Shown piece after piece: positions 16,401-52,118 of a DNA stretch of 64,000 bases. The notes under the pieces were generated by a model that was given only the letters and a program-made list of their open reading frames with translations, searched no databases and was not told where the DNA came from. The DNA comes from Sphaerolaimus hirsutus. Taxonomy: Eukaryota > Nematoda > Chromadorea > Monhysterida > Sphaerolaimidae. The translations under genes and the position numbers were made by a program. Position 1 is the stretch's first letter. Each line of letters opens with the position of its first letter. The DNA is taken from assembly GCA_964036195.1 (NCBI GenBank), contig OZ038459.1, positions 19,279,206-19,343,205 of the forward strand, written 5' to 3'.

Positions 16401-19400
16401 GATGCAGGTGCGTAATAGCTGTGACTGTGGCCAAGGAGACAACATTGAATGTCCTAAAATGGATGAGGTATGGAAATTTGCTTAAAATGTTATTTGTGTT
16501 TTAGTGACTAAAAGACAGGAATGTGTACAGATCGATCAATTATGTCATGAGTTTTCAAGAATGTCGCTTCAGCCTAGTGAAGAGGTATTTTTTGTCATGT
16601 TAGAAAGTTCAAAATTTTCATGAATTTTACGTTTAATAGTCTTCACTGTTTTGAGCAAATCACTACAGGTTCAGTGCGAGATGCCAGAATTCAATCTACT
16701 ATGTCAGAAACATATTCAAGTGGCACCTCAACGTATTGAAAGTCTTCTACTTCAGGTACAAATTATTCAGAATGGTGGAGAAAGGGTTTTGATTGCACAA
16801 TTGACATGAATATTTTAGATTTCAGTGTTTTGATACAGTACAATTGGTTTGAGTATTCAATTGTTGATATTTAACATACAATTTTCATTATCAAATGTAA
16901 ACTTTGCTTCCGTTCGGGTACCGTTTTATTTATGTGAAAGTAAAATGTATGGTCGAATAAATTGGTATAAAATTGAGCAGGTAAAAATGTCATAAAAGCG
17001 AAACAGCCGAAACGTGTGAAAGAATACGATGCATTATCCACAGCAGTTCAAAAACGAGATAGGACAGAAAGCCCAGGAAACCTATCTAATTTCATTGTAA
17101 AAATTTATATAAATGTATATAAAAAATTTGTTTTAAATAAAGTTTTCACATTGATGAAAGAGCAAAAAAATGTCACGCAAACCTGTCGGAAAAAATTTTA
17201 AACATCAAAAATTGCGTAAAATAGCATTTTAAGTCAAAAAAAGTCAAAGTCAAAACATCAAACCCTAGGCAAAATGTAGCATTCAGAAGTTGTTAAACTT
17301 TTTGGGAATTTTTTTACATTGTGAACATCGACGTGATCAACATCCACGAAGCTGTCGTCGATGTCGACCAGCAAATTGTCGCCAGAATTAGACTGTGTAA
17401 AATTTTTTGTGAATTTGTTAAGGTTGAGCATGTTGAAAATTCATGAAAGTGAAACCTTTTTGTCGTTTGACTGGGAAGTACGGCATTTTTCTGAATTTCT
17501 GGTAGGTTCCAGATTTTCGGTATCGCTGGAGCCGTCGACATCGATGCTGATATCGAGTTGTGGTTCATCTAGGCAGTCCCAGTATGTATAAATTTCTGTC
17601 TAGAGTGTTAAAAGTGATGCAAACTGTCACTCGTGTAAAGAAACGGTTCTGCATGGCATTTTAGGTGAGAGTGTGCATCACGTCTCACACTTGACATAGA
17701 ACTTTACACATTATGGGTGTGCTACCTGCACTCCTGCAGACACGGTGCCGAGTTGTGAACGTGGGGGGTTCGCACTGATGAATATGTCAATGCCACACCG
17801 TGTGAAGTGTACAGTAAACTGTCAAATGTAAAAAGTGCTGGAACTTCATTCGCCTTCATTCACTATGTTTTGACACGTCATGTTTCACTTGACACGGTTA
17901 GGTATTGACACCTGGAAAACGTTTCGCGCAGCAAATGGTTTGGCTTGACCGCGTTCCCTGTCGATTTCGTAGTCCAGAGCGAATTCTCGAGTGAACCTGC
18001 AAAATAGCCAATTTTATCTTTAATTGTTGAGTGTCAATGAGAAAACTAAGTTCTCCATGTACCTCTTGGGTATCCATGCCTCTATCGGTTGATCGTTGAG
18101 GTTTGAATCCTGGTTTTCCAACCTGAGTTTGTGATTTCGAATTAAAGGACGTTTGAATGAGCAAAACGTTGAACCCGCAAAATTGTTGTTTCGAAGACAC
18201 AAACGAAAAAGATTTTTGGCTAAATTTCAGTGGTTAATAGTACTCTAACAACGTTTTCTTCACAACAAATAACAACAACAACAACAACACTCAATGCAAC
18301 CACAGAGCGCTCAGCTCTTTACTTTAGTGGTACAGTTGGGTAAAAATAAACTCACATTTTTTTAAAGTTTCCATTGTCGTCAATGAAAACTGTGTCGCCC
18401 TGTTGTAGAGCAAATTCTCTCGCGTCGTGTTCGATCCAGGTTTCTGGGGGCGTGACTTTCTCGCCAGATTTTTTCATCTTTTCGAGCAACGCAAAAACGG
18501 ATTGCAACAACGTCACCGGTTCCTAAATCGTTCAGTCAATGTTGAAATGTTATACCAGTAAAAAAGAAGAAAGCCACAGCTAACTTTGTTGCACATTACT
18601 TCAAGAACCGTGCACATTTTTCCAGAAACGTTCTCCTCCTTCAAAAAACAGAAAAACTCAAAAATGCGTCACCGAACAGAATATTCACAAGACGTGTCCT
18701 CTTTCACTTCAATTCGGTCTGGCCAAAAACACTTGCACAGCCTGTTGGTAAAAATGGATCTTGAATTACCGATAAATCGCAAAAACGGACAAACCAAAAA
18801 GCTCTATAAATAAGACAAACTTTGCCAATAAAATGCCATCTGTCATGAGCTGCCCAAACGATTTGGAATCGTCACACTCCAAATGTATGTCCATCTGGTG
18901 ACAGTGACACACAGTGTAAAGACCACAATAAAATGTCTAATGTCAGGCAAAGTGTGTAAAGTCATGTAAAATTGTTTGTAAAATGCGATCCTTACGCGCT
19001 TTACAGCTCACTGTACATGACTTTAGATACTTTATGTGACATTGAACCCTAAAAAGTGTTTTTACACAGTATGTGACTGTTGCCTGGTCGTTGTAGAAGG
19101 ACCAAACGGTTGCAAGCATGACGTTTTCGTGGCAGTCCAGCTATGGGGTGAAAAGTCATGTTACATAATGAAAAATTAGAAGTATTGATTAAAAAAGAAA
19201 CATTTGTCACCTGCACTTCACACCACGGTCGCCAATAGGTGCGCTGCAAAATGTGAATGAACGAATAAAAAGTGCACCGTGGATGCACCGAATAGCGCCA
19301 CTCTTCTTCGCACAAAAGGGCCCTCATTAAAGGATATTTAGAAGTATCCGGATTTTTCTCTGACTTCTCCTTCTTCATTCGTCCCATCTTTATTAATTTC

Positions 19401-22400
19401 AGTTTTAGGTGCCGCCATACACCTTCAATAGCATTAGAATTCAGGGGGCACTCGCAGACACTGCAAAATAGTGTGTTAAAAGTGAAATGGCATGGGAAGT
19501 GTGAAAAGTGCTAAAATCCCATGTAAATTTTCCCATTTTGCACGTAATTTTACACGACTTTTGACACTGCATGACATTTGACTTTTAACAGAGTTTTTTA
19601 CAGGGTGTGGAAGTGGCACCAGGCCGTCTTTCCGCTTGAATTCTTTGTTGTGGTTCACCATAAGGTGCTGGAAGCCATTCTCAGACAGGCATTTGTACGC
19701 TGCCCACGAGTCACTCACAATTTTTGCGCCTAGAATGATTAAAAATGCAATAAATTTAGAATTTCAGTTTGACAAAAGATCACTTTCATAAAAAGATCAC
19801 GTTTCATCAAAAAAAGAAATACCTTGCGCGACATTAGCCTTGATAATCGCCAAAAGTGTTTGCTTATCTCTTTTTTTGACATACTTGTACCGAACCTGAA
19901 ATTTGACGGAAAGTTGCAGTTGAAATTTATTGAAATATGGAATACATTGGGTGTCCTTTAAAGAGACAATGAATGATTTTGTATGTACTCACAATGACTT
20001 GTCATTGTGATACAAAAAGAAAACATAATTGATCTGTATTTTCTATGAAACTTATGTTCTTCCAATTCTGGGTCAAATAAACACGGTATTTTTGGTATAC
20101 AGCGTAACGTTTGGAACACTAACATTACGGGTTTCGCTTTTGCAAAATGAAAAAAATAGATAAAGCGGAAGAAAAACATAAACAAACATCAGTTACGTGT
20201 CCGTTCAGAGTCTCCACTAAGCCAAAAACCCATGGCCCAATAATCACCGCGCCATAATTCTTCCTTTTTGACGCAAACTTATCGCCCAGCCTGGGCCTTC
20301 CCTTTTTGTTGACTGATTGTTTTTTGCGACCCCTCATCAAAGTTTCATCAATCTAAAATGTCTGAATTATAATTACCTGAAATTAAAAGAAAGCCTAGAT
20401 TAATATACCTGCACAATTGAGCCAGCAGTGACTCCCATTGGCCTTTCTTCACATTGTTTTTGTCTATCGAAATAGATTACCTACATTAAAAGTAGGTATA
20501 GACATGGTAGCCAAATATCTGAATATACCACGCAAACATGCAAATGTAACCTCTCTGCACAAATGGGCCCAGTCTGTAATTGTAGAATTACTTGGCACTT
20601 TTTTCTTGGAACGCGTAGAAGGTACGTGGATAAAATTATCTCTTATCAACGTGCGCGACATGCCAATCGACCAGGTGTAGATCAGGTACAGAATCTACAA
20701 AACATAATTGACATGTGTCTGACATTTGCATATCGTGTTAAAATGCTGTAAAGTGTGAAAGGTGGAAAGATTTATGCAACCTGGCGCACGGTGAGCATGC
20801 GGTAAGCTCTACCATCCTTTGTTTGCCATGAAAAGACAGAATTGTGCGCTAACGAACGACCCTGGAGCACTCCCACATCCTGTAAAGAACCTGTAAAATG
20901 TGAAAGTTAATGCAAAGTGTGAAAAGTTACGTAAAATGCCCTGGAAACACGTAAAAAAACTGATTTCACAAAGCATTTTAGATGAATTTTGACACTTTAC
21001 ATCGAACTTCACATTTTACAGCGCTTCTTACACGCTTGTGAGTGCCACCAGGTGACACACGGTGCATCGAGTCATTAGTGCAGGGGCAGTCGCCGGATCC
21101 CAAGTGACAACACCGGTACAATTTGACCGGAAACAACTGCCGTAACTGAAAAATGGAAAAACAAAAATCGGGCGAAAACATCTAAAAAACGATTTGGGGT
21201 GCGGGGTCTTTCGAGGTAGTAGGTAGACAGATAGCTGACTGCCGTCCGGGATAGATAGATAGCTGGGAGAAACAGTGAAAAGTGATGGAAAACGGAAAGT
21301 GACATTGAAATGTGTCACACTTTTACTTACTTTTCAGGGTTACACTTGTAATCAATTTTTGCACTGTGCTCATTCTAAACCCGCAAAAAAGCTGTTTCGG
21401 TCACTCACAGAACCCCTTGAAAAACTGTATTGGATGCTCGTGTTCGTCTTTGATGTAGTTAATCGCCGCCCAGGAGGGTAGTGATAACAATTATATTTGA
21501 CGGTTAGGGTCATTAAATGACCCTAACTAAAAAGGCGTTTCTGTGAACTGAGTTATTGGCCCAAATTGGCCAATTGAAATATTGGCAAAACATAGATTGC
21601 GACTTACGCAGGGGGGGGGGCGCAAAAATTGGGGGAAAATATGTCAAAAATGATTTGTGCTGCGGGGTCTTTTGGGATAGATACATAGGGCTGATAGATA
21701 GCTGTCGGAAACAGTGAAAAGTCTTCGAAAACCAAAAGTGCAATTGAAATGTGTTACAGTTTTTCTAACTTTTCAGGGTTACACTTGTAATAAATTTTTG
21801 CGCTGTGCCCACTGTAAACCCGCAAAAACGCCGTTTCGGTCACTCACAGAACCCCTTGAAAAACTGTATTGAATCTGATGTTTTGCCAAGTTTCGCGGAC
21901 CGGCCCCCGCCGCCAGGGGGTCCCGCTAAGAATTATTTGACGGTTAGGGACATTAAATGACCCTAACTAAAAAAGCGTTTGAGTGAAATGAGTTATTGGT
22001 CCAACTTGGCCAATTGAAATATTGGGAAAACATAGATTGTGACTTACGGTGGGCGTGCCCAAAAATTGGGCGAAAATATGTCAAAAACGATTTGCGCTGC
22101 GGGCTCTTTTGGGGTATATAGATAGCTGTGGGAAACAGTGAAAAGTCATCGAAAACCAAAAGTGCCATTGAAATGTCTGACACTTTTTCTAACCTTTCAC
22201 GGTTACACTTGTAACCAGTTGGTTTTGGTAACAGATCCTGATCCTGCGCGAATCTGATCGCAGCAATTTCACTGTCGAGAAAATCGAGTTTCCAAAAAGC
22301 CGGATTTTCTTTGCCAACTCGCTCGTGCGGCACAAACGGCTCGTGGTCTTCTGGCTCGGACACCTGCGCGAAAAACGGCAAAACATGTTTGCCTGTGGAA

Positions 22401-25400
22401 AAAAGTCAAAAGGCACACTTTATGACAAATTGACTTATAAAGAGAAAAAATCACCTAAATGTACCCACAAGTAACCATCCATAATCACAGGTAAACGTGG
22501 TAAAACAGATGACTAACCTCATCTGCAAAATGACTAAAGGCGTCAAGATTCGTCCTACGCCGATATGGAATACGTTTTGCCTTTAATCTTTTCCTTCGGC
22601 TGGGTACGTTTTGTTTCCTTTTGGGTTTCCTTTTGGAATAACGCGACGGCACAAAATCACTGTAGGCCATTTGAGGCATGATTTCAACAAAGAAAACAAA
22701 ATTTAAAGTTGGTTGATAAAATACGCTGAAATTTGATGTAAATTTGTATAATGGAAAAACAAACGTGAATGACATGAAATATTGCAATTGAATGCAACAG
22801 TACCTTGCACTGAATACAATAGAAAATGCATTGTAAAGTAAGAGATGCAAACAGAATTTATTCAATCAGCGAAAACCAATTCAATCAGGTAACAATCATC
22901 AAATTTTTTTTCTCCAACTAGGGATGGCCAAAAAGTTTTCTTTTTCAACGGGCAACTGAGGGAGCAATTGCCCAATTCAACGACCAATTGAAAACAGTTT
23001 CGCCTGGCGCAATTCAAGAATGGAACTTTTTGCAACTGCATGGATCTTTTTGTGGTGTGTCACTGAATTGTCACTCAGCAAATGCTTATAATAGTGGGAT
23101 ATGGTAAACATGGGATATTTTATACCCGCTTTGTCGTCTAATGCAAGGCGGGGGAGTGGAACCAGCGAACCCGCTATATATAGGTTTCAATGTTTATAAA
23201 ATAAGTCCCTCCAAATAGATTCATTACCGTCCCTCCCTGCCTGGGGCGACTCAAAAAGCCAGCGTTGCGCAATTCAGAAGAGCTGCCTGCAAGCAAGGCG
23301 GCCTGGTATGAGCTGGCAACGCGTATTTTGGTAACAATTTGGTGGGCGCCAAATTGTGTGGTGCAATCGCTGCTATCTCATGGTATCCCAGTGGGGCAAT
23401 TGAAACATATAAATTGCGGGTGTGGAGCCATTTACATAGGTATGTGAATGGAGTGACATTTGCCCGTTAACATGTGACAGGTGTGAATAGCAGACATTGT
23501 AGCAGAAAAAAGCGCTTTGAATGGTCCTTTTTTTAAATAAATTTTTTTTTTTAAAAGGTTTGAAAAGACACCCTGGCCATCCCTATCAACAATGCAAAAC
23601 AGTTTTAAGAAACGGTCACAATAACAGAATCTCTATACGGCGTTAATTCGGCATTCACTAGTATCACAACTGGAGCCTTAGCTTTACCTTTATCACCACC
23701 ATTACCGTCTCCACTATCAAAGTCATTCCAGTCCATATTAGCCAACCAGGGATGAGGAGAAGAAACTGCGAACAACGCAACAAAAACTATACAATTTGTA
23801 CCACAAAAATTGCAAATGCGGGGGGGTGGGTGTAGGGTTCAAACGGGATTGACTTTTCGGGATCGGGATCGGGATCGGGATTCACTTTTTGAGATTTCGG
23901 GATCGGGATCGGGATCGGGATTGGGGTTTCGGGATCGGGATCGGGATCGGGATTGGTTTTTTGAGATTTCGGGATCGGGATCGGGATCGGGATTGGCCGG
24001 GATTGGGGTCACGGGATCGGGATCGGGATTGGGATAGGCATTTTTGGATAGGGATTGGGACTGAGCCAAAAATTGCAAAGGGGAGTGGGTAGTGGGCCGT
24101 TTGTGGGCCGAAAATTGCAAAGCTACAATACGGTGATGTTTACCTGGGCCATAAGTTTCCGTTTTCTGACGCTTTTCCTCGAACTGCTTATACTCAAGTT
24201 CCGACTGCTCGAGCGCATACTTCATCGCCTTTTCTTCATCATAATTTGCGCCGAGTGTGCTGTCCACTAAAAAAAGATGAAAGGTTTGAAAATTTAAAAA
24301 AATTGCAACTTATACAAGAAAAAATGTAATAAATAACCAAGTGATTTGTCGGTTTTTCGTCGTTTTCGCTGGCACTGCTTGTACTCAGCCTTGGATTGTT
24401 TGAGAGCGATGCGCAGCGCCTCCTCCTCATCGTAATCATCTTCCGCCAGAATGACACCTTAAAAAGCATGAAAGGTTGTTTGAAATACATAATCTCAAAA
24501 ACAATTTTTTAAACTTGTAAGTAAACCTGAAGTGTCCGATTTATGCCCGAATTGCCGACCATCCGTTTCATACTCATCGAATTCAGGGAACGTCAAACAC
24601 AAACCTGCAAAAATAAGGAAACCATTTCCAATGACATTCTTTCAAAAAGTGTTTTTTAAAGGGTAACAACAGCTGAACTTTGCAACCTGAACTGCGCCTT
24701 TTCTGGCGTAATCGTACAGCAGGCCCAACCGTAGTGCTAGACGCCTCCGTAGACCGCACAGTGCTCTCAGCAGGCTGTTCAAAATGTCCACTAGACGGCG
24801 ACACGACACCTAGTGGCACTCTCACACCGTATAAGTACTCTGTAAAGTGTCCTGTAAAATGTGAAATGTCATGCAAGCACGTTGGAAAGTCGTGAATCAT
24901 GTAAAATCTGCTGCAAAACGGGAACTCGGTTGCCAGTTTGCAGCACATTTTACATCATTTTTCACACTCTACAACACACTTCAAAGACTACTGTACATGG
25001 TGTGCGAGTTGCACCTGAGTGCGGAGACGTCGATTCGAGAAAATTCAAGTTGGGAATGTGCCTGTGCGCCTCCAATTCAGCAGAAGCTTTCTTCATTGCC
25101 TCATTTCTAGTTGTGCTGGTGACCTCGTCCTTGCTTTGCAGGTATTCCTAGAAAAATTTAAGCAAAGATATGGCTAAACCAAACATTACACAAACACAAT
25201 TTTATGAAAAGAAACAAACCACTGCCTGAACGACACTCATCGTCTCATCATTCTCAACCCCCGGTGAACTGATAAACCTGTGAAGTAAAGTTTTGTCAAA
25301 AATGGCCAATTTTGCTTATTTTGTCAACTTTTAGAATTAGATCACTTAAAGATTCACAAGATTACCTGTGGGCCCTTTCTTTCAACATTTTCAATGCAGC

Positions 25401-28400: not shown

Positions 28401-31400
28401 TCCACCCCCCCAAACCCCCCCAGCCTATTCTATAGTACCCCCCCTGCGGGGCTATACACAGATTCTAGTGGATGGTTAATAGACTTTATAGACATGTACA
28501 CTTTGGTCGCCTTCCATTGATAACTAGCGACGGCTCGTTCACGGCCTCTTGGCCGTGAACTCGTTGGGGGGGTTCCACCCCCCCAAACCCCCCCAGCCTA
28601 TTCTATAGTACCCCCCCTGCGGGGCTATACACACATTCTAGCGCATAGTAAACAAAGGAAATACAAATTGCTCAAAATATTTTTTGAACCAACCACAGAA
28701 TCACTGAATGACTCCATGAAATCTCCAAAACTCACAATAACCAAAATGTCCTGCAAATCTCCAAAAGTCACAATAACAATAAAAATGTCCTGCAAACGTA
28801 TAACACAATGAAAACAAAAAATTTCTGTTATGGCAAGTATTCACGGTACAAATTTACCCCTTCATGATGAAATATGAGACACAATAACTAGCACAGTTTG
28901 CGCACAAATTTCATTTTAAAAGTGCCAGCAACAACAACAAACCAATACTACAACAAAGCACAAATGACAAAAGAAAAAGAACACCGAGTCATCAAATTTT
29001 TTCAATCAATCAAAACAATTGAATAAAATGAACAAAACAGGCAGATGTGCGTATCACTGCACCTGCCTCAAAACAACTGAACATAAATCAGATTGCCACG
29101 TTTGCTACATGTGACCCTCAATTGGATGCTGTTGTCGACCAGCCGCAACTTCTTTGAACCATTTTTAATCAAGTACAAGACCGCGTAAAACGTCATCTGA
29201 ACCACCAAAATGAATGCAAAGTACTGTAGTTTCAAACTTTAAAAAAACCGATGTTTTTTTAAAAAACTTTTTTTTAAAAAGGTCTTTTTTCCTTTTACAA
29301 AAAAGGGATTAAACAGATTCATTACGTCCATTTTGAGAGATTATAGTGATCTGAATACGCATTCATCTAATTGGATACATTCAGTTTTATATGGTCTTGT
29401 AAATATACGTGATGCGGGTCGCGCGCTCTCTTTTCTCTTACAGCAGTCCTTACAGGATTGGCCATTGACTCGGCGCTGCATTCTCCGCCAACAATTTCCT
29501 CCACAAGTTGATCAAACCAAACATCCTGTGTATTGAAATAAAACTATTTATCAAGTATTTTCGAGCGGAAGCTGCGCATTGTATAGAGAGCCCACCAAAC
29601 GCGGTTAGCAGGACATGTTAGGCCGCCCCCTTATTTAGCATTTACACCCCCCTAAAAATCACCCTTGTCTCCCGATGTACATTTTGTTCCATGTCTAAAC
29701 TGTTTCGCGGATCTTCATTCTCATCGTCGACGGCGTCATTCCCATGGTTGATGTCGTCAACTAGTTCGAATTTCGCACGAAATCGCACATTGTTGACGCA
29801 AAAAATAGTGCGATACCTGACATAAGACAACACATTGCGAAAGAATGATAACAATGAAAGACATAACATTTAATAACTAACTGCGCCACCCCAGGTTCTA
29901 GAGTCAGCACCTGTACGCTCTGACAAACTACCACGGCACCATCATTCACCCTGAAACTGCGAGATATCTCTCCATAAGATTCGGGGCGGTCTGAAACACG
30001 GCGGAATTCGCGCCAGTCTGAAGTGGGCGTATCAATGCGCCACACGAAATCAACCAGATTGGTACTTATAACACCAGTAAAGTGGACATCGAAGTGACAA
30101 ATCTTGTTAGCTTAGTGATGAGATATTAGATTGACACTTCATGTCACACTTGAAAAGTATTGCAAGTACCACCAGGATTACTCGGTCATCATCTTTGAAA
30201 AGTTTGACAGAATCCCTATAGGTCGCCCTATGCAGCAATTGCGCTTCTGACTCTGCCGATTGCATCTGAGAAGAAAGAAATGAATGAGAAATCATACCCG
30301 CCTTACATCAACACATACCCACCTGACATGAAAACGTTTAAACCAAAATTAAGTGTACCTAACATGAAAATGTTCCGACTTGACAGTGAAATGTACCCGC
30401 TTGACATTGAAATGTACCTGGTTGACATTGAAATGTATCCGCTTGACATCAAAACCTACCTTACATCAAAATGTATCCACCAAACATGAAAAGACGGCCC
30501 GGTAAAATAAAAAATTACCGGCCTCACATGGAAAGTGTAGCCACCTTACATCAAAATGTACCAGTCTCCAGGAACGTCTGAAAATATACCCAGAAAAGAA
30601 AAATAAGATTGAAACCAACACCGATAAGCCAACAGTGGTGGTAAGCCGGACGATCACCAGGCTAGGCCAATGGCCATGCAAAGATGGAAAAACGGAAGTA
30701 GTCCAGCAGCCAGACAACCGAAGTCACGAGGAACGCCGAGACAGCAACGCCGTAAAGAAGGAAAAAAATGAAAAACTGACATTTGTAAATTCAACTAAAA
30801 TACTAAATGCTATGAAAAGCAGTAAAAATGAGCTTTAGAAACTAAAAGTGTATAATTTAATTTTCTGACACATTCTTTACATATCCTTTTCATTTATTAA
30901 AATCTGCAACGGCACATCGCTCACAAAAAAAACCGTTCAGCATGTAACTATGAAATTGGACACATTTAAATTGTGATACAACAAACAGAGGTTGAAAACA
31001 AAAGGCAAAATTTAAACATCATATCTTCACGTGAAAAATTCTAGCCACACAACATTTAGGCACATTTATACTTATAAAAGGCTTAAAGTAATCTCTCAGT
31101 AATAACCGTATATGACTAGGGTTCAAAGGAGATTTGAGTTTTCGGGATGGGAATCACAATCGGGTTTATGATCGGTATGGGGATTCGCCATGCACAGGGA
31201 TCGGGATTTGGATCGGCATCGCCATGCACATCTCAAGCGACCCGTTTATGCATTTTTTTCGCATAGCGGTTCCCCTTTGAACCCTATATATGAGTGCAGT
31301 AATGCACATGCATAGATATTGAGACCTCACAAAAAACAAAGCTCCATTATAGAGATTCAGCCAGCGACAACTCTGGCATTCAACAAAATGCAATTCAAAA

Positions 31401-34400
31401 ACCCTGAGCACAAGTAAGAAAAATGCTAGAACAAAAACACTAAAAAAAGTGTTTTAGAAAAAGTTTACAAACAAAAGAAATACACTAGCAAATCTACACC
31501 GGCAATATTCACGCAAACGCACCGGAAATGATCATACAAAGAACAAGCAACAGGGACATATCAAGGATTGTTGAGGGGACGGGCTCGCAAATCAACATAG
31601 AAAATGCAACGTATTTACCATGAGCGCCAAAAAGCGAAAACCATGTATTCACGATGTTTTGTTGCTACAGGAAGCGAGCCCCCCCGCCCGAAAACCAAAA
31701 AATTTAAACGATTCAAACACATGGATGGGCAGCCACATGGATGCACCGGACAAGTAAAACACACAACAAATAAATTGTGTAGCGATAGCCGTGTACCCGC
31801 CCCACACTTATGTAAACATACTGGCTATGTAAACGCCCAAGTCATTTGTAATATCATAAGTATGCACATTTTTACACTTTTTTGTCACTCTTCACTTCAC
31901 AAATTTCACTTGTGAAGCCAAGTGAACTTATCATGACAAATATCGTTATTAATAATTTTTTGATATTATTCCACCAATATAACTAGTTTATCGACTGAAA
32001 AGTCAGTAAAAAATTATGACATGTCTAGATCGGAATTTACAGGGAATTTACATGTAGCCAGCGAGCCTACACCAAAAAAAAACCTTTTTGACACAACCGA
32101 AGAATACAACAAGAAAAATCAATCAGCCAATGTAGCCATGATAGCACATGCATTATTGCCAACTTCCATCAGCCACAAGCACACCAGCAAAAATCCACTG
32201 CGTTCTCCCATATTCTCCACATCCAGGGTGACCGTAATGGGCTCGTTTTGCACGGTTGCAATCACAGCATCCCTAAAAAGTAAAACTATAAACATAATTA
32301 TCCATCAATTATCTATTGAGGCTGGGGGGGGGGGTTGGAACCACGGCACCAGCACGATAATAAAGATAGAACAACCCCCCTGAGAGTGATGCGTCAAAGT
32401 GACAATAAGAACCACCCCCCTGAAAGTGACGCATCAAAATGGGCATAAGAAGAACCCCCCACAAAAAGTGCGAACTCACGTGCTATCCTCAACGCGAACA
32501 ACCAATTCTTGGGATGGGCGCCTCACCAACAGGTCCATTGGAACGCTGCAATACACCACGCCAAGGCCAAGGCGCGGGCTCTGCTGCTCTTCCGCATAAG
32601 CAACGTTCACGTCCGTCCTGGGTGCACTACTAGAGGCTTTCAAATCACTTGTAAAATGTAAAATGTCACACAAAATGTGAAAAGTCATGTAAAATGCGAT
32701 GTAAAACGGAAAAGGTATATTTCCAATTTTCTAACCCATTTTACATGACTTCACGCACTTTCCATGGCATTTCACACTACACACAACATTTTATAAACTC
32801 TTGGAGTGGCACCTGTATTTGACGGTCATTTTGATGGTTGTGTTGGTCGTGTTGCGCTGCAGAAAAAATTGTGTAAAAGTACACACTAGATTTTTCAATA
32901 AAAAATTGGGAACAAAAAAACGGAAACTAACAAGGCTGAACACAGTGCTGTGGCTAGCCGGTTGACCAAATGGCAGATTGGCAACTGGAAGCAGTCACAC
33001 ACCGTGTAATGTGTAAACTAAACACTTAAATGTCATGTAACCTGTGATCTACAATGTCATGTTAAATGTCATCTAAATACGCCGCCAGAGTTGTAAATAA
33101 CAATATGAATAAAGTAAAACTAAAAGTTAACAGTTAATGACATTTCACAATTTCGTCTACACTTTACACGGTGTGCGATTGCAACCGGGGGGCGGCCTAT
33201 GCTGAACGCGCACAAACGCACTAACAGCCGGGCCAGCCGGTGCCGGCCCACCAAAAACTTCGTTCACTGCACCCGCACCAGCGTTCACATTGGCCGAGGC
33301 TTCCCTTAGAAGCCTAGCCCTTTGAATAGCGGCGCGCATCGCAAAGCCGCCGGCCCTCGGGATTTCCTCTGAATCTAGTGGCACTTGCAAACCGTATAAA
33401 AATCCATGTAAAATGTAAAAATGTCACGGAAATTGTTAAAAGTTATGTAAAAGGCGCCGTAAAACGCTGTGCAAAATTGCCAATGTCTTACTGATTCATG
33501 TGGCATTGAACATGACTTTTCACAATTTCCACACATTTAACGTTTTACACATGAGTTTACACGGTGTGCAAATGCTGCCTGGCGAACTGGAGCGATGGGT
33601 CTCCGGTGTGTCCGGTATTGGAGTCGCCGGCCGTATTGGAGACGGTTCCCTTGTCGGAGTGGTGTTGCCATCCGTGTCGACATCAGCATTCGCAGCCGCA
33701 CTATCGTCATCATCTAAAAAAATGTGTGAAAACTAATTTTTCAACATGTACTCAAAAGCCTTTTTTACCAGCATTCTTTCAGCAGTATCCCCTATTTTTC
33801 AGCAGTATGCCCTATTTTTTTCATGAAATAGCCCTATTTTTTTCAGGAATAAGCTCTATTTATTTTAGGAATAACCCCTATTTGTTCAGGAATAAGCCCT
33901 ATTTGTTCAGGACTAAGGTCTATTTTTTTAGGAATAACCCGTATTTTTTCAGGAGTAAGCCCTATTTGCGTACCTTCCGACGATCCGATCTTCGTAGCGC
34001 GACCTCGCTTCCTCGCTAACCGAGCCCTCATAACTTCCCTAGCGGTCCGCAGTCGCGGCGGGCTCTCACACGATGTGTCATTATCCCTGGGGGCAGTTGC
34101 AAACACTTTTAATAGTAAAGTAAAGAACCAAATGAATTGTGTATTTGAATGACTTTGTAAAAAGTGACAGTAAAATTTTTCTAATATAGTTGTACATTGT
34201 ACAAGATGTTTTGCACTTTACTTTTCATATGACAAAGCTTGCCACTGAACCTGGAGTTGCCATCGTCGGACTTGCCATCGTCGGACTTGCCATCGTCCGA
34301 GTTGCCATCGTCGGAGTCGGATTTGGTAACGTCCGGGCTGCAGCTCACGTGCGAATCGTTGTCATTCTGTGCATTGCAAAAGTTTTAAAGTAATAAATGT

Positions 34401-37132
34401 AAACATCCGCAAAATTTCAAGAAACGTAAAAGTTTCACAAACAAGGAATGTATACGACACTTCACTCACCGAGTCAGCTTCATCCCTAGGCTCAATTTTG
34501 GGCATCACGTCAATAGTTTTGACGATTTTCCCGCCACAGGCCTTCACAATTCTGGCTGCCTTAGCCGGCGGTTCATCGTCACTGTCCTGGCCCAAATCGT
34601 CGTCCGTGTCGCTCTTGTCCTGCTCCGTGGCCACCTGCGAGTTTACAAAAAAAATTATAATTACATACGGCCCCCACGCGGGAAAGAATCCGCACCCCGG
34701 CAAAAAATGAACACCCGCGGAAAAATAGCACGCCGGGGAAAAACCCCACGCCAGGGAAACAACATGGGAAAAAACAAGTACCCTGGGAAAGAACCCGCTC
34801 CCCGGGAAACAACCCGCTCCCCGCGACGAACCTTCCCCTCCAAATTCGCCACTTCCCCCCTAACATTGACTTTTCCCTCCTCAGCAAGTACCTTCATGGT
34901 ATCTTCTTGAGGCACTCCCAGACCCTGTAATAACCAATGTAAAATGTTAAATGTTACGGAAAATGTGTAAAAGTCATGTAAAATACCATGCAAAATTTCC
35001 AACCTGCTAGAAATTTTACATTGTATTTTAGATCACTTTACACACTTTACATCTGATTTAACATTTTACACAGTATTTGCAGGACCCCAGAATGCCACCT
35101 GGTATACGCGGAAGAGACACAATCAGAGGCGTACATTTGCTCGCCAGGCTCAAGTCCAATGGCACCTCTGGCACTTTGAATAGGTCGCCGGCGTCGTCGC
35201 CGGAGTTGCCGCCCACCTGCTGGCTGGAGTTGCAGCCCACCTCGCCGGAGTTGCCGCCCACCTGCTGGCTGGAGTTGCAGCCCACCTCGTCCTTGGAGTT
35301 GCCGCCCGCCTCGTCGCCGTCCGACTTGGCCGCCTCGGCCGCGGCCTCCGTAGCCCCGCCCGCTATGGCCGCCTTCCTCCTCTTCTCCATCCTCGCTTCA
35401 CGCCTCGCGGCCTGCGCCAAGGAAAGTATAATGTGCAAACATTACCGCGCAGAAGTACAAAACACTGGCCACACAGTACCGACACTCACTCTATTTGGTT
35501 CCTCGCGAATAAACTCCGCCCAAAGCTCGTCAAATGTCTCGCCGCCCTCGGTGCCGCCCGAGTTGCCGCCCGAGTTGCCGCCCGAGTTGCCGCCCGCGTT
35601 GCCGCGTGAGTTGCCACCCGAGTTGTCGCCCGAGTTGTCGCCCGAGTTGCCCGCCCCCTTCACGCTACTCGCTTGTTGCGACATCTACGCCAACGGAAGC
35701 ACCATCTGTCGACACATTAGCGTGGAAAAGTATGGAAGAGTAGCGACACACTAGCGACACTCACCTTAATTGCGTCCGACAGATTAAACGCAACAAAACT
35801 TGATAAGAATTATTTAATTGCCGAAAAACGAATGACGCAAGCGAAAAACCAACGACGCAAGCGATAAAAGACGCCAACTTTAATTTTAGAACGATTTCGC
35901 GCGATTAAAACATGCCCCACTTGTGCCAAATCCCAGGAAAGCGAACACAGAAAATTATTTCGCAACAGTCCGTGGCCTAGACAGAACACAGAAAACTATT
36001 TCGCAATATACCGTGGCCTGGACAAAAAAGACATTTGATAAAAGTGGGCGGAGTTTATACAATCTGCTGATTTTCACAAAAAAAGAACGATCAAAATAAA
36101 TAAAATAAAATTGCGAAAGAGCCCCCGTTACGCTTTTTATGAATCAATAAAACCACACATTTTCGACTTTGGCAAAATGCCCTATTAAGAGCCCAAAGTT
36201 GCGGATAGGCATGGTTAAGCCGATGTCAACTAGTGTGTGTCAACATTTAAGCTAAAAATTGCAAGCTTTCATCCCGAGTATCAGGGACGTATCCAGGATT
36301 TTTGAGTAGGGGGCTTTTTGTTTACGTGGACTCAGCCTGCCCCAAAAAAATTTTACCTGAATGGAGACGGAATTGCACTGGCGATAAAAACCGTAGATAT
36401 TTATGTAAATATACGTACATATACAGCGACAGGCACACCATCAAGTGTATTTCAGATGGAATTAATCGGAACTACAGAGGGCGATTTTTAAACCCCCCCA
36501 CCCCCGTGTGACGAGATAATGCGCGCCTACGCGCATAATTTTTGCATAACAGTTTGCATTTTTGCCTAATCTCGAATTTGATTTTCCTCGTTTTTCAGGT
36601 GTCGGTCGGGAACGGGGGGCTGCAGCCCCACAGCACCCCCTGGATCGCCCCACTTCGATATTTTTGACAGCTTTATCATATAATATATTATTATCATGTG
36701 TGAAGCATACGGCAACGCATAGAATTGGGTGCCAGCCAAGGAATGATCACATGACCAAGCAAAGCTTACGAAAGCATAAACACATCCAAATTCCACAAAT
36801 CCAGTGCCACAGAAACCACACTCAAACCAGAAGAAACAAACTTCCCAAAAAAATCCCCACCAACCAAGAGTGAGCGTAAACCCGGTTTCATGCACCGGCA
36901 GCCATTTCACATGCATGTGCTTCATGCCCCACGCCACGAACACAGTCAACATCATGAGAAGAACGTAGATCATCAATGTGAGCGTGTCCAACTTGTGCAT
37001 GGTCACCGATTTCTTCTCCAACTCCTTTTCCACCTTCTCGTCGGGGTAGTTAACGTCCGACATGGGGGAAGACTTGTCTTGGCACTGTGCCAGAGTGGAT
37101 AAGAGGCACAGTAGTAGGATTGTGGGCACCAT
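7489..37132 (-). CDS. Na+/H+ exchanger, NHE6/7/9 (SLC9A6/7/9) type, 14 exons
   Basis: Predicted electroneutral cation/proton exchanger of endosomes or trans-Golgi. Exons: 36865-37132, 14620-14849, 14067-14221, 12695-12794, 12416-12522, 11082-11203, 10663-10797, 10505-10593, 10303-10416, 10120-10231, 9640-9786, 9225-9267, 9029-9173, 7489-7666; about 647 residues, close to human NHE6. Seen in translation: a signal-peptide-like start ([17 protein letters not shown]), [55 protein letters not shown] and the tail [11 protein letters not shown]. These follow the order of the family. The start at 37132 places the signal peptide first; an in-frame ATG at 37183 is the alternative. Intron 1 (14850-36864) contains two whole genes. 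The fourth listed exon is split from the fifth by a MITE-derived intron ending CCG. The join 9225/9173 is out of phase by one base with canonical sites and fits only if the intron starts GG. All other joins are in frame. Confidence 0.93.
7919..8178. mobile_element. hAT-like element, CAGGGACGTATCC family
   Basis: Ends CAAGGACGTACGCAGG and CCTGCATACGTCCCTG, with exact 8-bp duplication AGAATACA (7911-7918, 8179-8186). The interior has G and C runs and GGCGCCAGCGCC palindromes. Confidence 0.9.
8535..9003. repeat. GATA/poly-G repeat element
   Basis: Starts GGGGTCTCCTAGGGGG and ends AAAATCTTGGAGACCCC, an inverted terminal match, with the CAGCTATCTATCTATCC blocks inside. It lies 26 bp beyond exon 13 of the exchanger (9029-9173). 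Confidence 0.75.
9378..9520. mobile_element. Decayed GTGCCA-family MITE in an exchanger intron
   Basis: GGGCCACTGCTAGACCCCG at the left, and arms with TTTGACATTTTACATGAC. The right end is not clear. Confidence 0.5.
10846..10925. mobile_element. Fragment of GTGCCA-family MITE in an exchanger intron
   Basis: Only the left arm (TGCCAGTCCCGCACCCTG followed by TGTAAAATG-type repeats) is visible. Confidence 0.45.
11385..12345. repeat. GATA/poly-G repeat split by a hAT-like insertion
   Basis: Left part 11385-11596, right part 12258-12345. The CTCCGGGA target of the inserted element belongs to this repeat. Confidence 0.65.
11597..12257. mobile_element. hAT-like element, TAGGGATGGCC family
   Basis: Ends TAGGGATGGCCGG and TTGGCCATCTCTA. 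Exact 8-bp duplication CTCCGGGA (11589-11596, 12258-12265). It was inserted into a GATA-rich repeat, whose halves lie on both sides. In an exchanger intron. Confidence 0.9.
12523..12694 (-). mobile_element. MITE intron in exchanger gene (GTGCCA family), 3' end CCG
   Basis: A palindromic element of about 169 bp interrupts the codons Asp-Pro | Val-Thr of the ATDPVT motif. On the coding strand the exon ends ...GACCCG, the element starts GTGCCAATCCCAGACC and ends GGTCTGGGACTGCCCC, then CCG (duplicated) and GTCACA follow. Removing element plus one CCG restores the reading. No AG lies near the 3' boundary. Confidence 0.85.
12827..13609. mobile_element. hAT-like element, CAGGGACGTATCC family, with a nested repeat
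   Basis: Ends CAAGGACGTAGCCAGG and CCTGGCTACGACCCTG. The flanks CTAGGGGA and CTCGGGCA match at 6 of 8 bases. A G-rich repeat of another family sits at about 13183-13345. In an exchanger intron. Confidence 0.65.
14355..14525. repeat. CCCGAT-rich repeat
   Basis: Degenerate CCCGATCCCGAA units, the complement of the GGGATC repeat, in an exchanger intron. Confidence 0.6.
14905..15052. mobile_element. MITE, CACACACGCTAGTTGACATC family
   Basis: Left end CCCCCACACACACTAGTTG. The right arm ends ACATTTGGTGTGATGTCAAC. It lies 56 bp upstream of exon 2 of the exchanger, inside intron 1. Confidence 0.75.
15053..16279. other. Exchanger intron 1, 3' part: nothing firm
   Basis: Contains a 36-bp tandem pair (TTTTTTACCGCATTTTTTTG at 15381 and 15412), one arm of a GTGCCA-family MITE near 15705-15755, and short plus-strand ORFs that may belong to the 16.4-kb candidate. 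Confidence 0.5.
16410..16809 (+). CDS. Candidate small Cys-containing gene (three exons), opposite strand inside exchanger intron
   Basis: Three consecutive exon-like pieces share phase 0 and have canonical splice sites: 16410-16469 ([20 protein letters not shown]), 16531-16584 ([18 protein letters not shown]) and 16670 to a stop near 16809 (begins [15 protein letters not shown]). The product would hold about eight cysteines in roughly 90 residues, as in a small secreted protein. I could not fix the first exon. A hydrophobic start, [17 protein letters not shown] at 16280, looks like a signal peptide but does not join in frame with canonical sites. A longer open stretch at 15900-16210 may be part of the same transcript. 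No family recognised. Confidence 0.35.
17258..22679 (-). CDS. Merlin/IS1595-like DDE transposase-domain gene, 23 exons, probably domesticated
   Basis: Exons: 22518-22679, 22194-22363, 21770-21811, 21331-21363, 21049-21145, 20781-20861, 20626-20694, 20551-20604, 20409-20480, 20197-20352, 19823-19895, 19620-19729, 19211-19441, 19084-19140, 18821-18894, 18673-18741, 18585-18638, 18356-18522, 18063-18122, 17912-17996, 17726-17774, 17456-17568, 17258-17392; about 737 residues. A basic N-terminus (KRKPKRKQN) is followed by LLPKPT, a Cys-pair region (TRCTVCHL), [66 protein letters not shown] and [11 protein letters not shown]. This is the order of Merlin transposases, with first D in IDE, second D in SDSW and E in AIEG. 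About 230 further residues are acidic or Cys-containing and foreign to the family. Six introns are MITE copies. The exon 16/17 join needs a TG...AG or similar intron. I saw no Merlin terminal repeats around it, so a host gene is likelier than a live element. Confidence 0.82.
17569..17725 (-). mobile_element. MITE intron, transposase-like gene, GT...TAG
   Basis: Coding strand: exon CAG | GTAGCACACCCATAATG ... CATACTGGGACTGCC TAG | exon. The terminal repeats are diverged. Splicing keeps the frame (GCA G|AT GAA). Confidence 0.75.
17775..17911 (-). mobile_element. MITE intron, transposase-like gene, GT...CAG
   Basis: Coding strand: exon CAG | GTGTCAATACC ... GGTGTGGCATTGACAT, then a few extra bases and CAG | TGCGAA. 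Older and shortened. In frame. Confidence 0.65.
18895..19083 (-). mobile_element. MITE intron, transposase-like gene, GC...CAG
   Basis: Coding strand: exon CAG | GCAACAGTCACATACTG ... CACACAGTGTGTCACTGTCAC CAG | ATGGAC is the layout, flanked by identical CAG triplets. The 5' splice site would be GC. The frame is open on both sides. Confidence 0.75.
19442..19619 (-). mobile_element. MITE intron before the catalytic Glu of the transposase domain, 3' end CTG
   Basis: Coding strand: GAC GGC CTG | GTGCCACTTCCACACCC ... GTGTCTGCGAGTGCCCC CTG | AAT TCT. CTG is present at both ends. Removing the element plus one CTG gives Asp-Gly-Leu-Asn-Ser-Asn-Ala-Ile-Glu. No AG at the 3' boundary in the right frame. 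Confidence 0.85.
20862..21048 (-). mobile_element. MITE intron, transposase-like gene, GT...CAG
   Basis: Coding strand: CAC CTG | GTGGCACTCACAAGCG ... GGATGTGGGAGTGCTC CAG | GGTCGT. The flanking triplets are CTG and CAG, as expected if the 3' copy mutated T to A and so gained an AG. In frame. Confidence 0.8.
21180..22225. repeat. Three tandem units of about 430 bp (intron plus exon end)
   Basis: Each unit has GATAGCTG...GAAACAGTGAAAAGT, then TTTCA(G/C)GGTTACACTTGTAA, and the first two also have CCGTTTCGGTCACTCACAG or its near match. Starts are near 21180, 21640 and 22060. The exon ends of the transposase-like gene at 21331, 21770 and 22194 fall at the same point of each unit. Confidence 0.75.
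22919..23586. mobile_element. hAT-like element, TAGGGATGGCC family
   Basis: Ends TAGGGATGGCCAAAAAG and CCTGGCCATCCCTA, between the two nested genes. The flanking 8 bases are only partly alike. Confidence 0.7.
23605..35684 (-). CDS. 31-exon gene nested in the exchanger intron; two ubiquitin-interacting motifs, otherwise unknown
   Basis: I do not recognise the family. Exons: 35490-35684, 35099-35411, 34832-34905, 34470-34634, 34251-34366, 33975-34086, 33579-33713, 33186-33374, 32932-32984, 32813-32856, 32480-32617, 32185-32272, 30173-30265, 29882-30054, 29663-29816, 29454-29525, 29083-29196, 27898-28142, 27786-27831, 27343-27549, 27177-27251, 26903-27028, 26706-26835, 25366-25879, 25220-25277, 25015-25147, 24687-24809, 24527-24604, 24338-24457, 24144-24266, 23605-23765 (edges good to about one base). 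All joins keep one open frame of about 1,455 residues, which supports the model. It starts MSQQASS with Gly-Asn-Ser repeats, then acidic SDDGK repeats, a Lys/Arg segment, a middle part without recognised domain, and a Ser/Ala/Arg repeat region. Two UIM-like helices near the C-terminus ([17 protein letters not shown] and [18 protein letters not shown]) suggest ubiquitin binding. Nine introns are MITE copies. A 30265 ATG could instead start a separate gene. Confidence 0.75.
23834..24058. repeat. GGGATC simple-repeat element (TAGGGTTCAAACGGG end)
   Basis: About 20 GGGATC units in blocks, starting beside AGGGTTCAAACGGG. It lies in the intron between the last two exons of the UIM gene. Related stretches are at 168-199, 14355-14525 and 31130-31220. 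Confidence 0.75.
24810..25014 (-). mobile_element. MITE intron, UIM gene, GT...TAG
   Basis: Coding strand: exon CAG | GTGCAACTCGCACACC ... GGTGTGAGAGTGCCAC TAG | GTGTCG. The inner arms are near-palindromic, with the GCAAACTGGCAACC-type centre. Frame kept (TCA G|GT GTC). Confidence 0.85.
25590..25860. repeat. 90-bp coding tandem repeat
   Basis: Three units of 90 bp (30 codons) inside one exon of the UIM gene, each encoding a Ser-Pro-Arg-Ala-Gly-Ala and Arg-Gly-Arg-Val-Thr-Ser-Ala pattern. In frame, so copy number can change without a frameshift. Confidence 0.8.
25880..26705 (-). mobile_element. MITE intron enlarged by nested hairpins, UIM gene
   Basis: The two halves of the MITE (25883-25990 and 26600-26700) are separated by about 600 bp of further inserted repeats. 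Coding strand: TTTGAGT | GTGAGCGGCACTG ... GGAGTGCCCG CAG | GGCGCA. A GTGAGC 5' site two to four bases before the element end seems to be used. In frame (GAG T|GG CGC). Confidence 0.7.
27550..27785 (-). mobile_element. MITE intron, UIM gene, 3' end TTG
   Basis: A relative with ends GTGGCAGTTCCGC. Coding strand: GAA CAC TTG | GTGGCAGTTCCGC ... TCTGGAATTGCCCG TTG | GTT TTG. TTG flanks both sides. Removal gives Glu-His-Leu-Val-Leu-Val in frame with 69 following codons. No AG near the 3' boundary. Confidence 0.8.
28182..28640. repeat. 173-bp tandem repeat, 2.7 units
   Basis: Unit starts at 28182, 28355 and 28528. Each has the palindrome GTTCACGGCC...GGCCGTGAAC and C runs (CCCCCCCAAACCCCCCC). Units one and two are nearly identical. 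It sits in a UIM-gene intron 40 bp upstream of an exon. Confidence 0.88.
30055..30172 (-). mobile_element. MITE intron, UIM gene, 3' end CTG
   Basis: Coding strand: GTA ATC CTG | GTGGTACTTGCAATAC ... GGTGTTATAAGTACCAAT CTG | GTT GAT. The join reads Arg-Val-Ile-Leu-Val-Asp-Phe-Val-Trp. The element is only 118 bp. Confidence 0.7.
30290..30570. repeat. About 20-bp minisatellite (TTGACATTGAAATGTACC)
   Basis: Degenerate head-to-tail units of CTTGACATNGAAATGTACC. Intron of the UIM gene. Confidence 0.65.
31117..31286. mobile_element. hAT-like element, TAGGGTTCAAA family
   Basis: Ends TAGGGTTCAAAGGAGA and TCCCCTTTGAACCCTA. Flanks TATATGAC and TATATGAG (7 of 8). The interior carries GGGATCGG-type repeats. 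Confidence 0.8.
32618..32812 (-). mobile_element. MITE intron, UIM gene, GT...CAG
   Basis: Coding strand: AAATA CAG | GTGCCACTCCAAGAG ... CCTCTAGTAGTGCACC CAG | GACGG. Exact CAG duplication and canonical ends. In frame (TAC AG|G ACG). Confidence 0.85.
32985..33185 (-). mobile_element. MITE intron, UIM gene, GT...CAG
   Basis: Coding strand: CCCCCG | GTTGCAATCGCACACC ... GGTGTGTGACTGCTTC CAG | TTGCC. Flanks CCG and CAG. Frame kept (CCC G|TT GCC). Confidence 0.75.
33375..33578 (-). mobile_element. MITE intron, UIM gene, GC...TAG
   Basis: Coding strand: TCGC CAG | GCAGCATTTGCACACC ... GGTTTGCAAGTGCCAC TAG | ATTCAG. GC 5' site. Flanks CAG and TAG. In frame (CCA G|AT TCA). Confidence 0.8.
33775..33967. 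repeat. About 24-bp minisatellite (TTCAGGAATAAGCCCTATT)
   Basis: Eight or so degenerate units. On the plus strand each resembles a 3' splice site (T run then TTCAG). The gene here runs on the minus strand. Confidence 0.7.
34087..34250 (-). mobile_element. MITE intron, UIM gene, GT...CAG
   Basis: Coding strand: AACTC CAG | GTTCAGTGGCAAGC ... GTTTGCAACTGCCCC CAG | GGATAA. CAG duplicated exactly. In frame (TCC AG|G GAT). Confidence 0.8.
34680..34830. repeat. GGGAAA/CCCCG degenerate tandem repeat
   Basis: Repeated CCGGGAAAxAACCCGC-like units filling most of a short UIM-gene intron. Confidence 0.55.
34906..35098 (-). mobile_element. MITE intron, UIM gene, GT...AAG
   Basis: Coding strand: ATAC CAG | GTGGCATTCTGGGGTCC ... 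CAGGGTCTGGGAGTGCCT CAAG | AAGATA. The 3' triplet is altered, so the exact boundary is uncertain by a base or two. An AAG end keeps the frame (CCA G|AA GAT). Confidence 0.7.
35685..36864. other. Between the UIM gene and exchanger exon 1: no gene seen
   Basis: Presumably the promoter of the UIM gene (a TTTATACAATC/GGGCGGAG cluster near 36048) plus repeat fragments, including GATGTCAACTAGTGTGTG at 36222. No ORF I can support. Confidence 0.4.
36286..36330. mobile_element. One end of a CAGGGACGTATCC-family element
   Basis: CAGGGACGTATCCAGG followed by ATTTTTGAGTAGGGGG matches the end of the 56.7-kb copy. The other end was not found. Confidence 0.5.
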
Positions 37133-50731: not shown

Positions 50732-50920
50732 CACGCACTCCCAGACCCTGTAAAAAGTCCTGTAAAATGTCAAATGTCATGCAAAGTGTCAAAAGTCATG
50801 GAAAATGCCCTGCAAAATGGCAACTCGGTTGCCATTTTGCAGGGCATTTTCCATGACTTTTGACACTTTGCATGACATTTGACATTTGACAGTACTTTTT
50901 ACAGGGTCTGAGAGTGGCAC
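50732..50920. mobile_element. Near-perfect palindromic GTGCCA-family MITE, intergenic
   Basis: The best-preserved copy. The left arm (CCCAGACCCTGTAAAAAG, TCATGCAAAGTGTCAAAAG) is mirrored in the right arm through a GCAACTCGGTTGC centre. CAG follows its right end. It serves as the reference for the family. Confidence 0.9.
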
Positions 50921-51904
50921 CAGGTAGATATATATCGTTTTTACACAGATTTAAAGGCAGCCTACTTGAGATCGAGAACAATGTCTTATATGTATTTATG
51001 TTAGACTTCAAGTATGATTGCAATATTTTTCGCCATTTTACCGCGAGTACAGCTGTTACAGTAATCAAGACTTCAAAACGGTACCCAGTATCAAAACCTC
51101 TCTACTACAGGGTGGCTCACTCATTTGCTGTTTACCTGAAACAAAAGGTGCTAAGTGCTAGCACAAATAAACACCCAAGGCTGTCCATGTATTTATGTGT
51201 GCGGCTTAACGGAACATGCCATCTGATGCGCGCAGGTGAAAAGCTGTTAATTGCTATTGCGGCGGCACAAATTGAGCAGGTGTGCAACATGGGTGGAAGT
51301 GTCCCATATTTATGTAGATGGATCAAATTTGGATGGTTGGATATCATACTGATACATATGTAAAAATCTATGTATGGTTGTGTCAGATTCATTTTACTCG
51401 CACAATTTAGTATTTTGATGAGTATTTCGATGCGTCAAAGTATTTCTTTTAATTGCATCTAATCGAATGTGACTTATTTATTTCACACAACTGCTGCGGG
51501 TGTTGTAGGTAATTGAAAATTAATCGCTGACAAACACTGTACAGGTTATTTCACCTGTTTTAAAATTGCGAGCATTCCGATTTATCCATTTTTTTGCAGA
51601 TGTGATGCCATCTCTGAGCTCAGTAAGGAGAGATTAATTGGCACGGAATGTCAATCCTCCAGCATGTGTTAATTATGTGACAAGTCGTTGGCAAACAACC
51701 AAGATCTTGAATTTTCATGACACTTTAAAAGCATTTAGATCACCTTAGAGAATGTACTGCGTTTGGCACTTCCCTCACACTCGACGCAGCTTAAGCCAGG
51801 ATATTTAAGTCATGTACCTATTTCGAATTTCCAAAAATTAACGATGTCAGTTAAATCCACTGAATAAAACTGGACTCACACGCCCCAAAGACCAGTCAGC
51901 CCAG

Positions 51905-52073
51905 GGGGCAGTCCCAGACCCCGTAAAAAGCCCTGTAAAATGTCAAATGTCATGCAAAGTGTCAAAAGTCATGGAAAATGTCCTGCAAAATGGCAACTCG
52001 GTTCCATAACTTTTGACACTTTGCATGACATTTGACATTTTACAGGGCTTTTTACAGGGCCCGGGACTGGCAC
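51905..52073. mobile_element. GTGCCA-family MITE just upstream of the Lim3 TATA box
   Basis: Flanked by identical CAG triplets (51902-51904 and 52074-52076). The arms match the 50.7-kb copy, with a deleted centre. Its right end lies about 45 bp upstream of TATAAAAG at 52119. Confidence 0.88.
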
Positions 52074-52118
52074 CAGCTAAAACGCAGCGGCGCGGCGACA
52101 GCGCAGTGTCGTGCGGCA

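Follow-up and report, generated by a model that had tools for sequence, protein, structure and literature searches.

The window analyzed here is a 64,000-nt stretch of the Sphaerolaimus hirsutus genome (C15:19279206-19343205), which innexin, CNOT9, and GPCR-like genes identify as that of an animal. The genes of interest in it lie inside a single 21,171-bp mobile element that is bounded by the terminal inverted repeats (TIRs) GGCTATTTCATGCCTAT and GGCTTAACCATGCCTAT (Table 1). A second copy was detected on C16, where 12 of 12 inner 301-base probes matched at 99.0 to 100%; this copy is known by its probes rather than by a full read-through. The match between the two copies ends sharply at positions 15051 and 36221, and 9-bp target duplications are present in the window (GATGTCAAC) and on C16 (GATAGTGAC). 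A hand-joined exon reading contained an ISXO2-like (DDE_Tnp_IS1595) domain (67.8 bits; E 1.4e-18). By this domain, its TIRs, and the 9-bp duplication, the element at 15051-36221 is of the Merlin type. Merlin elements are typically far shorter than 21 kb, and the element differs from them in its length and in the further genes and introns aboard, whereas the ISXO2-like transposase and the 9-bp duplication are common to both. A target duplication of 8 to 9 bp is cited for Merlin transposons in PMC4482050.

The first-pass annotation had described two nested genes at this place, with 14 introns (15 with a Na+/H+ exchanger) that each equal one copy of a palindromic element or a relative. The genes do carry such element-introns, but their setting differs from that description, as both lie inside one Merlin-type transposon. 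Their introns therefore travel with the transposon; an identical copy of the one at 19445-19625 was found on C16. The interval 15051-36215 was scanned on its minus strand for NNG^G[T/C]...NNG (carets mark boundaries) with matching 26-nt arms, triplets at most 1 base apart, and a length of 120 to 259. This strict scan returned 10 places, 2 of which were dropped as overlapping low-complexity G-runs and 8 of which were kept; five block-shuffled controls gave 0, 0, 0, 0, and 2 places. With two looser cases recognized by eye, 10 of the 14 proposed introns and that of the exchanger were recovered, while the remaining 4 were neither found nor refuted individually. Donors beginning GTG, GTT, and GCA occur as had been described, but GTA was not met among the confirmed introns. 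Elsewhere in the window, positions 42828-44430 and 60042-60431 hold duplicated exons of one hydrolase-like gene with an identical translation stretch.

Table 1. Features of the window (positions within the window; triplets are given as before/after the element)
Feature	Position	Strand	Triplets and ends	Basis or remark
Na+/H+ exchanger element-intron	12523..12694	-	CCG/CCG, GT...CCG	join SATDP^VTILAIF
Merlin-type transposon, 21,171 bp	15051..36221	.		contains the two nested genes
Probable element-intron, 343 nt	17569..17911	-	CAG/TAG	by eye, weak partial profile match
Element-intron	18895..19083	-	CAG/CAG, GC...CAG	strict scan, span 19083-18898
Transposase element-intron	19442..19619	-	CTG/CTG, GT...CTG	strict scan, span 19619-19445
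Probable element-intron	20862..21048	-	CTG before, CAG acceptor	by eye, profile match
Element-intron	24810..25014	-	CAG/TAG	strict scan, span 25014-24813
Element-intron	27550..27785	-	TTG/TTG	strict scan, span 27785-27553
Element-intron	32618..32812	-	CAG/CAG	strict scan, span 32812-32621
Element-intron	32985..33185	-	CCG before, CAG acceptor	strict scan, span 33185-32988
Element-intron	33375..33578	-	CAG/TAG, GC...TAG	strict scan, span 33578-33378
Element-intron	34906..35098	-	CAG/AAG	strict scan, span 35098-34909
Element copy used as query	50735..50923	-	CTG/CTC	right end altered
Element copy	51904..52076	-	CTG/CTG	profile match

The palindromic element is a nonautonomous DNA transposon (MITE). 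It is about 190 bp long and occurs as CWG^GTGCCASTCCCAGACC...GGTCTGGGASTGCCCC^CWG at thousands of genome sites (sense consensus CWG^GTGCCASTCCCAGACCCTGTAAAAAG...CTTTTTACAGGGTCTGGGASTGCCCC^CWG; 165 to 192 bp among the 58 counted copies). Its two termini mismatch at 2 of the first four positions (GTGC versus GGGG), and the element thus has a direction. Exact pattern searches of the 348-Mb genome (762 contigs) found the left end preceded by CTG 1106 times and by CAG 1291 times, and the right end followed by CTG 884 times and by CAG 1277 times; the reversed end patterns, used as controls, gave 0 matches in each search. Copies were sampled by likeness to two query copies, by nearness to chaperonin genes, or by an exact CTG right end, and the triplet shares in the sample are therefore not those of the genome. 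From 120 profile matches, 81 were near full length and 58 were counted, after 17 below 140 bits and 6 duplicates were left out; a copy in L026 (CAG/CTG), one in L051, and the second one in L053 (both CTG/CAG) are among the omitted rows. Twenty further regions, 18 with both exact ends and 1 of them a duplicate, added 17 copies, for a total of 75. A scan of the window against Rfam returned no match. About 16 kb away lies a near-duplicate of the 50.7- to 52.1-kb part of the window, both element copies included (L002; C15:19345776).

The triplets that flank the element were identical in 40 of the 58 copies (≥140 bits), against 19.9 expected under independent pairing, and at most 1 base apart in 52. 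The identical pairs comprised 19 CAG/CAG, 17 CTG/CTG, and 4 others. As the base before the triplet was C in 38/58 copies and the base after it G in 37/58, the target is mostly CCWGG, of which CWG is duplicated. The 3-bp duplication that the first reading had postulated is real, but genome-wide it is mainly CWG within CCWGG and not any NNG. In the passages of PMC4482050 that treat the group, duplication of 5'-CWG-3' is described as the mark of the NuwaI group of PHIS transposons, which are mainly animal. With the CWG duplication as the one shared character behind the assignment, the mover of the element is most likely a NuwaI-type PHIS/Harbinger transposase. Introns go unmentioned in those passages on NuwaI, whereas the present element appears to make them and is known without its transposase.

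Joins across the element were judged by homology, because open-frame length was uninformative (42 versus 31 for sense and antisense, which were not told apart; p = 0.15). From the 75 copies, the scan covered 32 joins in sense and 24 in antisense orientation; Pfam matches were obtained for at least 8/32 of the former, a lower bound since the frame was wrong for the exchanger of the window and for some others, and for 0/24 of the latter, as would follow from a need for the GT end to lead. Seven of the eight matches span the junction and the cullin match lies on one flank; four are below the curated cut-off. The exact innexin join (CTG before, CAG after) gave a gapless match of 63 residues to 63 positions, and that of a galactosyltransferase (CAG/CAG) gave 64 to 64. 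In a guanylate cyclase, one join (CTG/CAG) aligned 65 residues with 63 positions, and another gave a weak match (28 to 28) under the cut-off. The exact joins of a GH1-like gene and of the G-protein-coupled receptor (GPCR) L023 had no Pfam match, and that of GPCR L079 scored 14.6 bits, below the cut-off; for both receptors the exact join rests on a TM2 spacing that we assume to hold. In HSP60, with a human HSP60 sequence as the yardstick, a spliced alignment that takes no account of splice sites placed one intron exactly on the element (GCGCAG^GTGCCAGT...GACTGCCCCCAG^GTAGC).

As is characteristic of introners, similar copies each appear to equal one intron in unrelated genes (HSP60, innexin, galactosyltransferase, cyclase, CNOT9, and the exchanger). 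The gapless joins would likewise leave message length unchanged, the cyclase join being the 65-to-63 case. We consider it likely, on these joins, that the element is an introner whose left end gives the GT donor and whose second target copy gives the acceptor. A further element, which adjoins the CTG/CTG copy in OSCP1, has exact CAG ends on both sides (C1:3592806-3593000).

The acceptors CTG, CCG, and TTG are the most unusual part of the system. In CNOT9 the element is flanked by CTG/CTG and the nearest AG inside it is at -19, yet the exact join aligns without gaps to solved CNOT9 over 141 residues, of which 17 ahead of the junction and 9 beyond it are identical; the Rcd1 matches of the genome, 3 of 3, fall within this one gene. 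Exact joins with a CTG acceptor were also gapless in BCKDHA (46 residues) and in OSCP1 (Pfam, 42 to 42; 3 of 3 OSCP1 matches at one locus), while an Srx-type GPCR join matched with 109 residues to 107 positions. CNOT9, OSCP1, and BCKDHA are located on C1, at 10594025-10596463, 3591410-3592807, and 8334720-8335910, respectively. The exchanger join in the window, at CCG, was gapless over 54 residues against solved exchangers. The CTG/CTG join of the Merlin transposase covered 59 residues to 59 positions of DDE_Tnp_IS1595; with an AG alternative that adds three residues (CPL), the score fell by 5.9 bits (11.9 versus 17.8 bits). For the TTG/TTG intron at 27785-27550, no AG lies nearer to the acceptor than -77 and +24, and the best among 8 enumerated AG alternatives lose at least 7 residues. 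Exact removal with TG and CG acceptors at scale appears well supported by homology. The proposals that one palindromic transposon family acts as intron maker, and that the element end is the donor and the triplet after it the acceptor, accord with the exact joins in conserved proteins elsewhere in the genome. The first-pass annotation had listed the CTG, CCG, and TTG acceptors but passed over their break with the AG rule.

The two ends of the element differ in their triplets. CTG made up 46.1% of CWG triplets at the left end and 40.9% at the right (Fisher p = 4e-4), and the unequal triplets among the 58 copies included 8 CTG/CAG and 0 CAG/CTG pairs; one CAG/CTG copy (L026:1988-1793; 54 bits) fell below the score cut-off. 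Both the CTG deficit and the asymmetry would follow from a role of the right triplet as an acceptor that functions better when it ends in AG. The idea that CTG acceptors are slowly repaired, T to A, as the copies age was considered and is weakened by the median arm divergence, which was 0.059 for CTG/CAG (n=8), 0.081 for CTG/CTG (n=34), and 0.079 for CAG/CAG (n=19). As CTG/CAG copies are no older than CTG/CTG copies, one may speculate that the mismatch arises at insertion and is then sieved by selection. Three young-looking copies (L075, L020, and L022; arm divergence, 0.013 to 0.040) are already CTG/CAG, a hint at such an origin of the mismatch.

We propose that a transposase of the NuwaI kind inserts the element at CCWGG and duplicates CWG. 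The left terminal repeat, which starts with GT, would act as the 5' splice site, and the second copy of the triplet, as the final three bases of the intron, would serve as the 3' splice site. Removal of the element plus one triplet would then restore the coding sequence. An ordinary GT-AG intron would result from CCAGG on the gene strand; CCTGG (or CCCGG) there would yield a GT-TG (or GT-CG) intron that is apparently still removed exactly. The CNOT9 copy has a predicted fold of -125.1 kcal/mol (z -15.5) with a single long stem, in which both splice sites are placed at the stem base and the ACAG is buried inside the stem. Such an RNA hairpin would bring donor and acceptor together and hide the ACAG, and it may in this way help in the choice of the weak outer acceptor. 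The 21-kb Merlin-type transposon would itself have been colonized by the element and its relatives.

The spliceosome is probably what removes the element from RNA. One competing account keeps the introner but has exact splicing in the CAG copies only, with CTG and CCG copies using AGs inside the element at the cost of small protein insertions. Codon-adding introners are reported from Aureococcus in PMC9860276. Suitable sites exist here: a GC^...ACAG intron would add 7 codons and a GT...GAG intron 3, and open in-frame AG alternatives were found at +3 (Merlin transposase and GPCR L023), +5 (BCKDHA), and +7 (CNOT9, OSCP1, and exchanger), in an enumeration that leaves out L079 and the NHA gene (L066). 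Some in-frame alternatives remove residues rather than add 3, 5, or 7. These internal AGs would, however, place 3 to 7 residues in stretches that align without gaps and are highly conserved, for example GVIGAL^VKTDEQEV in CNOT9 and SATDP^VT in the exchanger. CNOT9, BCKDHA, and the exchanger would have tolerated such insertions although a single T-to-A change yields an AG, and arm divergences of 0.147 in CNOT9 and 0.118 in BCKDHA show that these two copies are not young. The TTG/TTG intron also stands against this account, with no internal AG of the kind. As a general rule, internal AG acceptors are thus weakened by the conserved proteins; we regard them as unlikely and retain them as the main rival.

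Removal by a route other than the spliceosome, either a hairpin-guided RNA cut at the stem base with religation or precise somatic DNA excision, would suit the long predicted hairpin, at whose base both joints lie. It would also suit the exact removal of introns that end in TG or CG against the AG rule. Nonconventional introns in Euglena have base-paired ends. Nonconventional introns of that genus are described in PMC11170887. A palindrome-guided or DNA-based route needs no direction, whereas all Pfam-matched joins in S. hirsutus are GT-first, and the right-end shift to CAG suggests a machine that reads AG; we therefore hold this route to be very improbable. Hardly any weight is left for the possibility that these are ordinary MITEs that came by chance to lie inside older introns or dead gene copies. 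It would account for the 24 of 32 sense joins without a Pfam match, as many copies may be outside coding exons, but in conserved proteins the boundaries of element and exon agree to the base. The blind alignment contradicts this reading for HSP60, and the occurrence of the CNOT9 and OSCP1 exons at one place each also stands against it; it was rejected or weakened on the exact joins of HSP60 and CNOT9.

On the preferred reading, spliceosomal removal of an introner, the system is of a known kind and possibly holds a genome-scale class of GT-TG introns. Introners are reportedly short DNA transposons that make many introns, as proposed by Huff et al. in 2016. According to PMC9860276, a short DNA transposon with TIRs makes many introns, its target duplication gives one splice site, and insertion and splicing leave message length unchanged; the element resembles them in these respects, in the last by the joins proposed here. 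It differs in its CWG duplication, its animal host, its form as one long palindrome, and in that TG acceptors in place of AG would be expected at about half of its insertion sites. The same source reports introners from only two animal groups. In the animal Fritillaria borealis, as described in PMC13326754, a triplet (YAY) ahead of the donor is matched by one that closes the intron, a logic like that found here, and many acceptors are likewise non-AG. The introns there are AG/AC and AG/AT and U2AF is duplicated, whereas GT donors and CWG triplets are used here. A duplicated U2AF and mostly noncanonical introns of the Fritillaria type were not encountered in a U2AF_lg search and in the HSP60 and CCT4 introns: one U2AF2-like locus holds four U2AF_lg matches and the others reach at most 44 bits, and with an aligner without a splice model, 5/6 HSP60 and 3/8 CCT4 introns were GT-AG and the rest were not resolved. 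TG 3' splice sites of human U2 introns (36 genes; PMC2374985) are alternative sites, whereas here TG would be the main acceptor and supplied by a transposon. Among the introner and Fritillaria papers covered, a set with most subscription papers outside it, no title or abstract opening describes this element family.

It may be, with the chances about even, that introns with TG (and some CG) acceptors number at least on the order of a thousand, have ends exposed by hairpins, and are removed exactly by a largely ordinary spliceosome. As CCWGG equals the preferred exon junction CAG^G on one strand, about half of the insertions would then be born canonical and about half GT-TG, and they would build the genes of the 21-kb transposon too. 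How new introns originate has long been asked, and introners have seemed scarce in animals. A single family whose exact ends number in the thousands makes the logic of insertion site, donor, and acceptor directly visible, and matched AG and non-AG introns from the same element render the AG rule testable as a natural experiment in conserved genes. Furthermore, a 21-kb transposon with introner-made introns would mean that introns spread inside another mobile element.

A PF13359 search, in which 150 of 306 candidates were scored and two loci were fetched, revealed no autonomous partner with the ends of the element, which for a NuwaI transposon would carry a DDE transposase and a Myb/SANT protein; the TIRs of the element are absent from the ends of both fetched loci. 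The PF13359 Harbinger-type transposase family itself (e.g., L050) has well over 100 near-equal matches. Most of them contain 4 TGA within a roughly 190-nt excess beyond the domain length, perhaps an element-sized intron, although by profile the element is absent from the one copy read. At another locus, an element copy (L051:421-616; CTG before, CAG after) lies about 1.6 kb upstream of a PF13359 domain, and transposase genes of two superfamilies may thus bear these introns.
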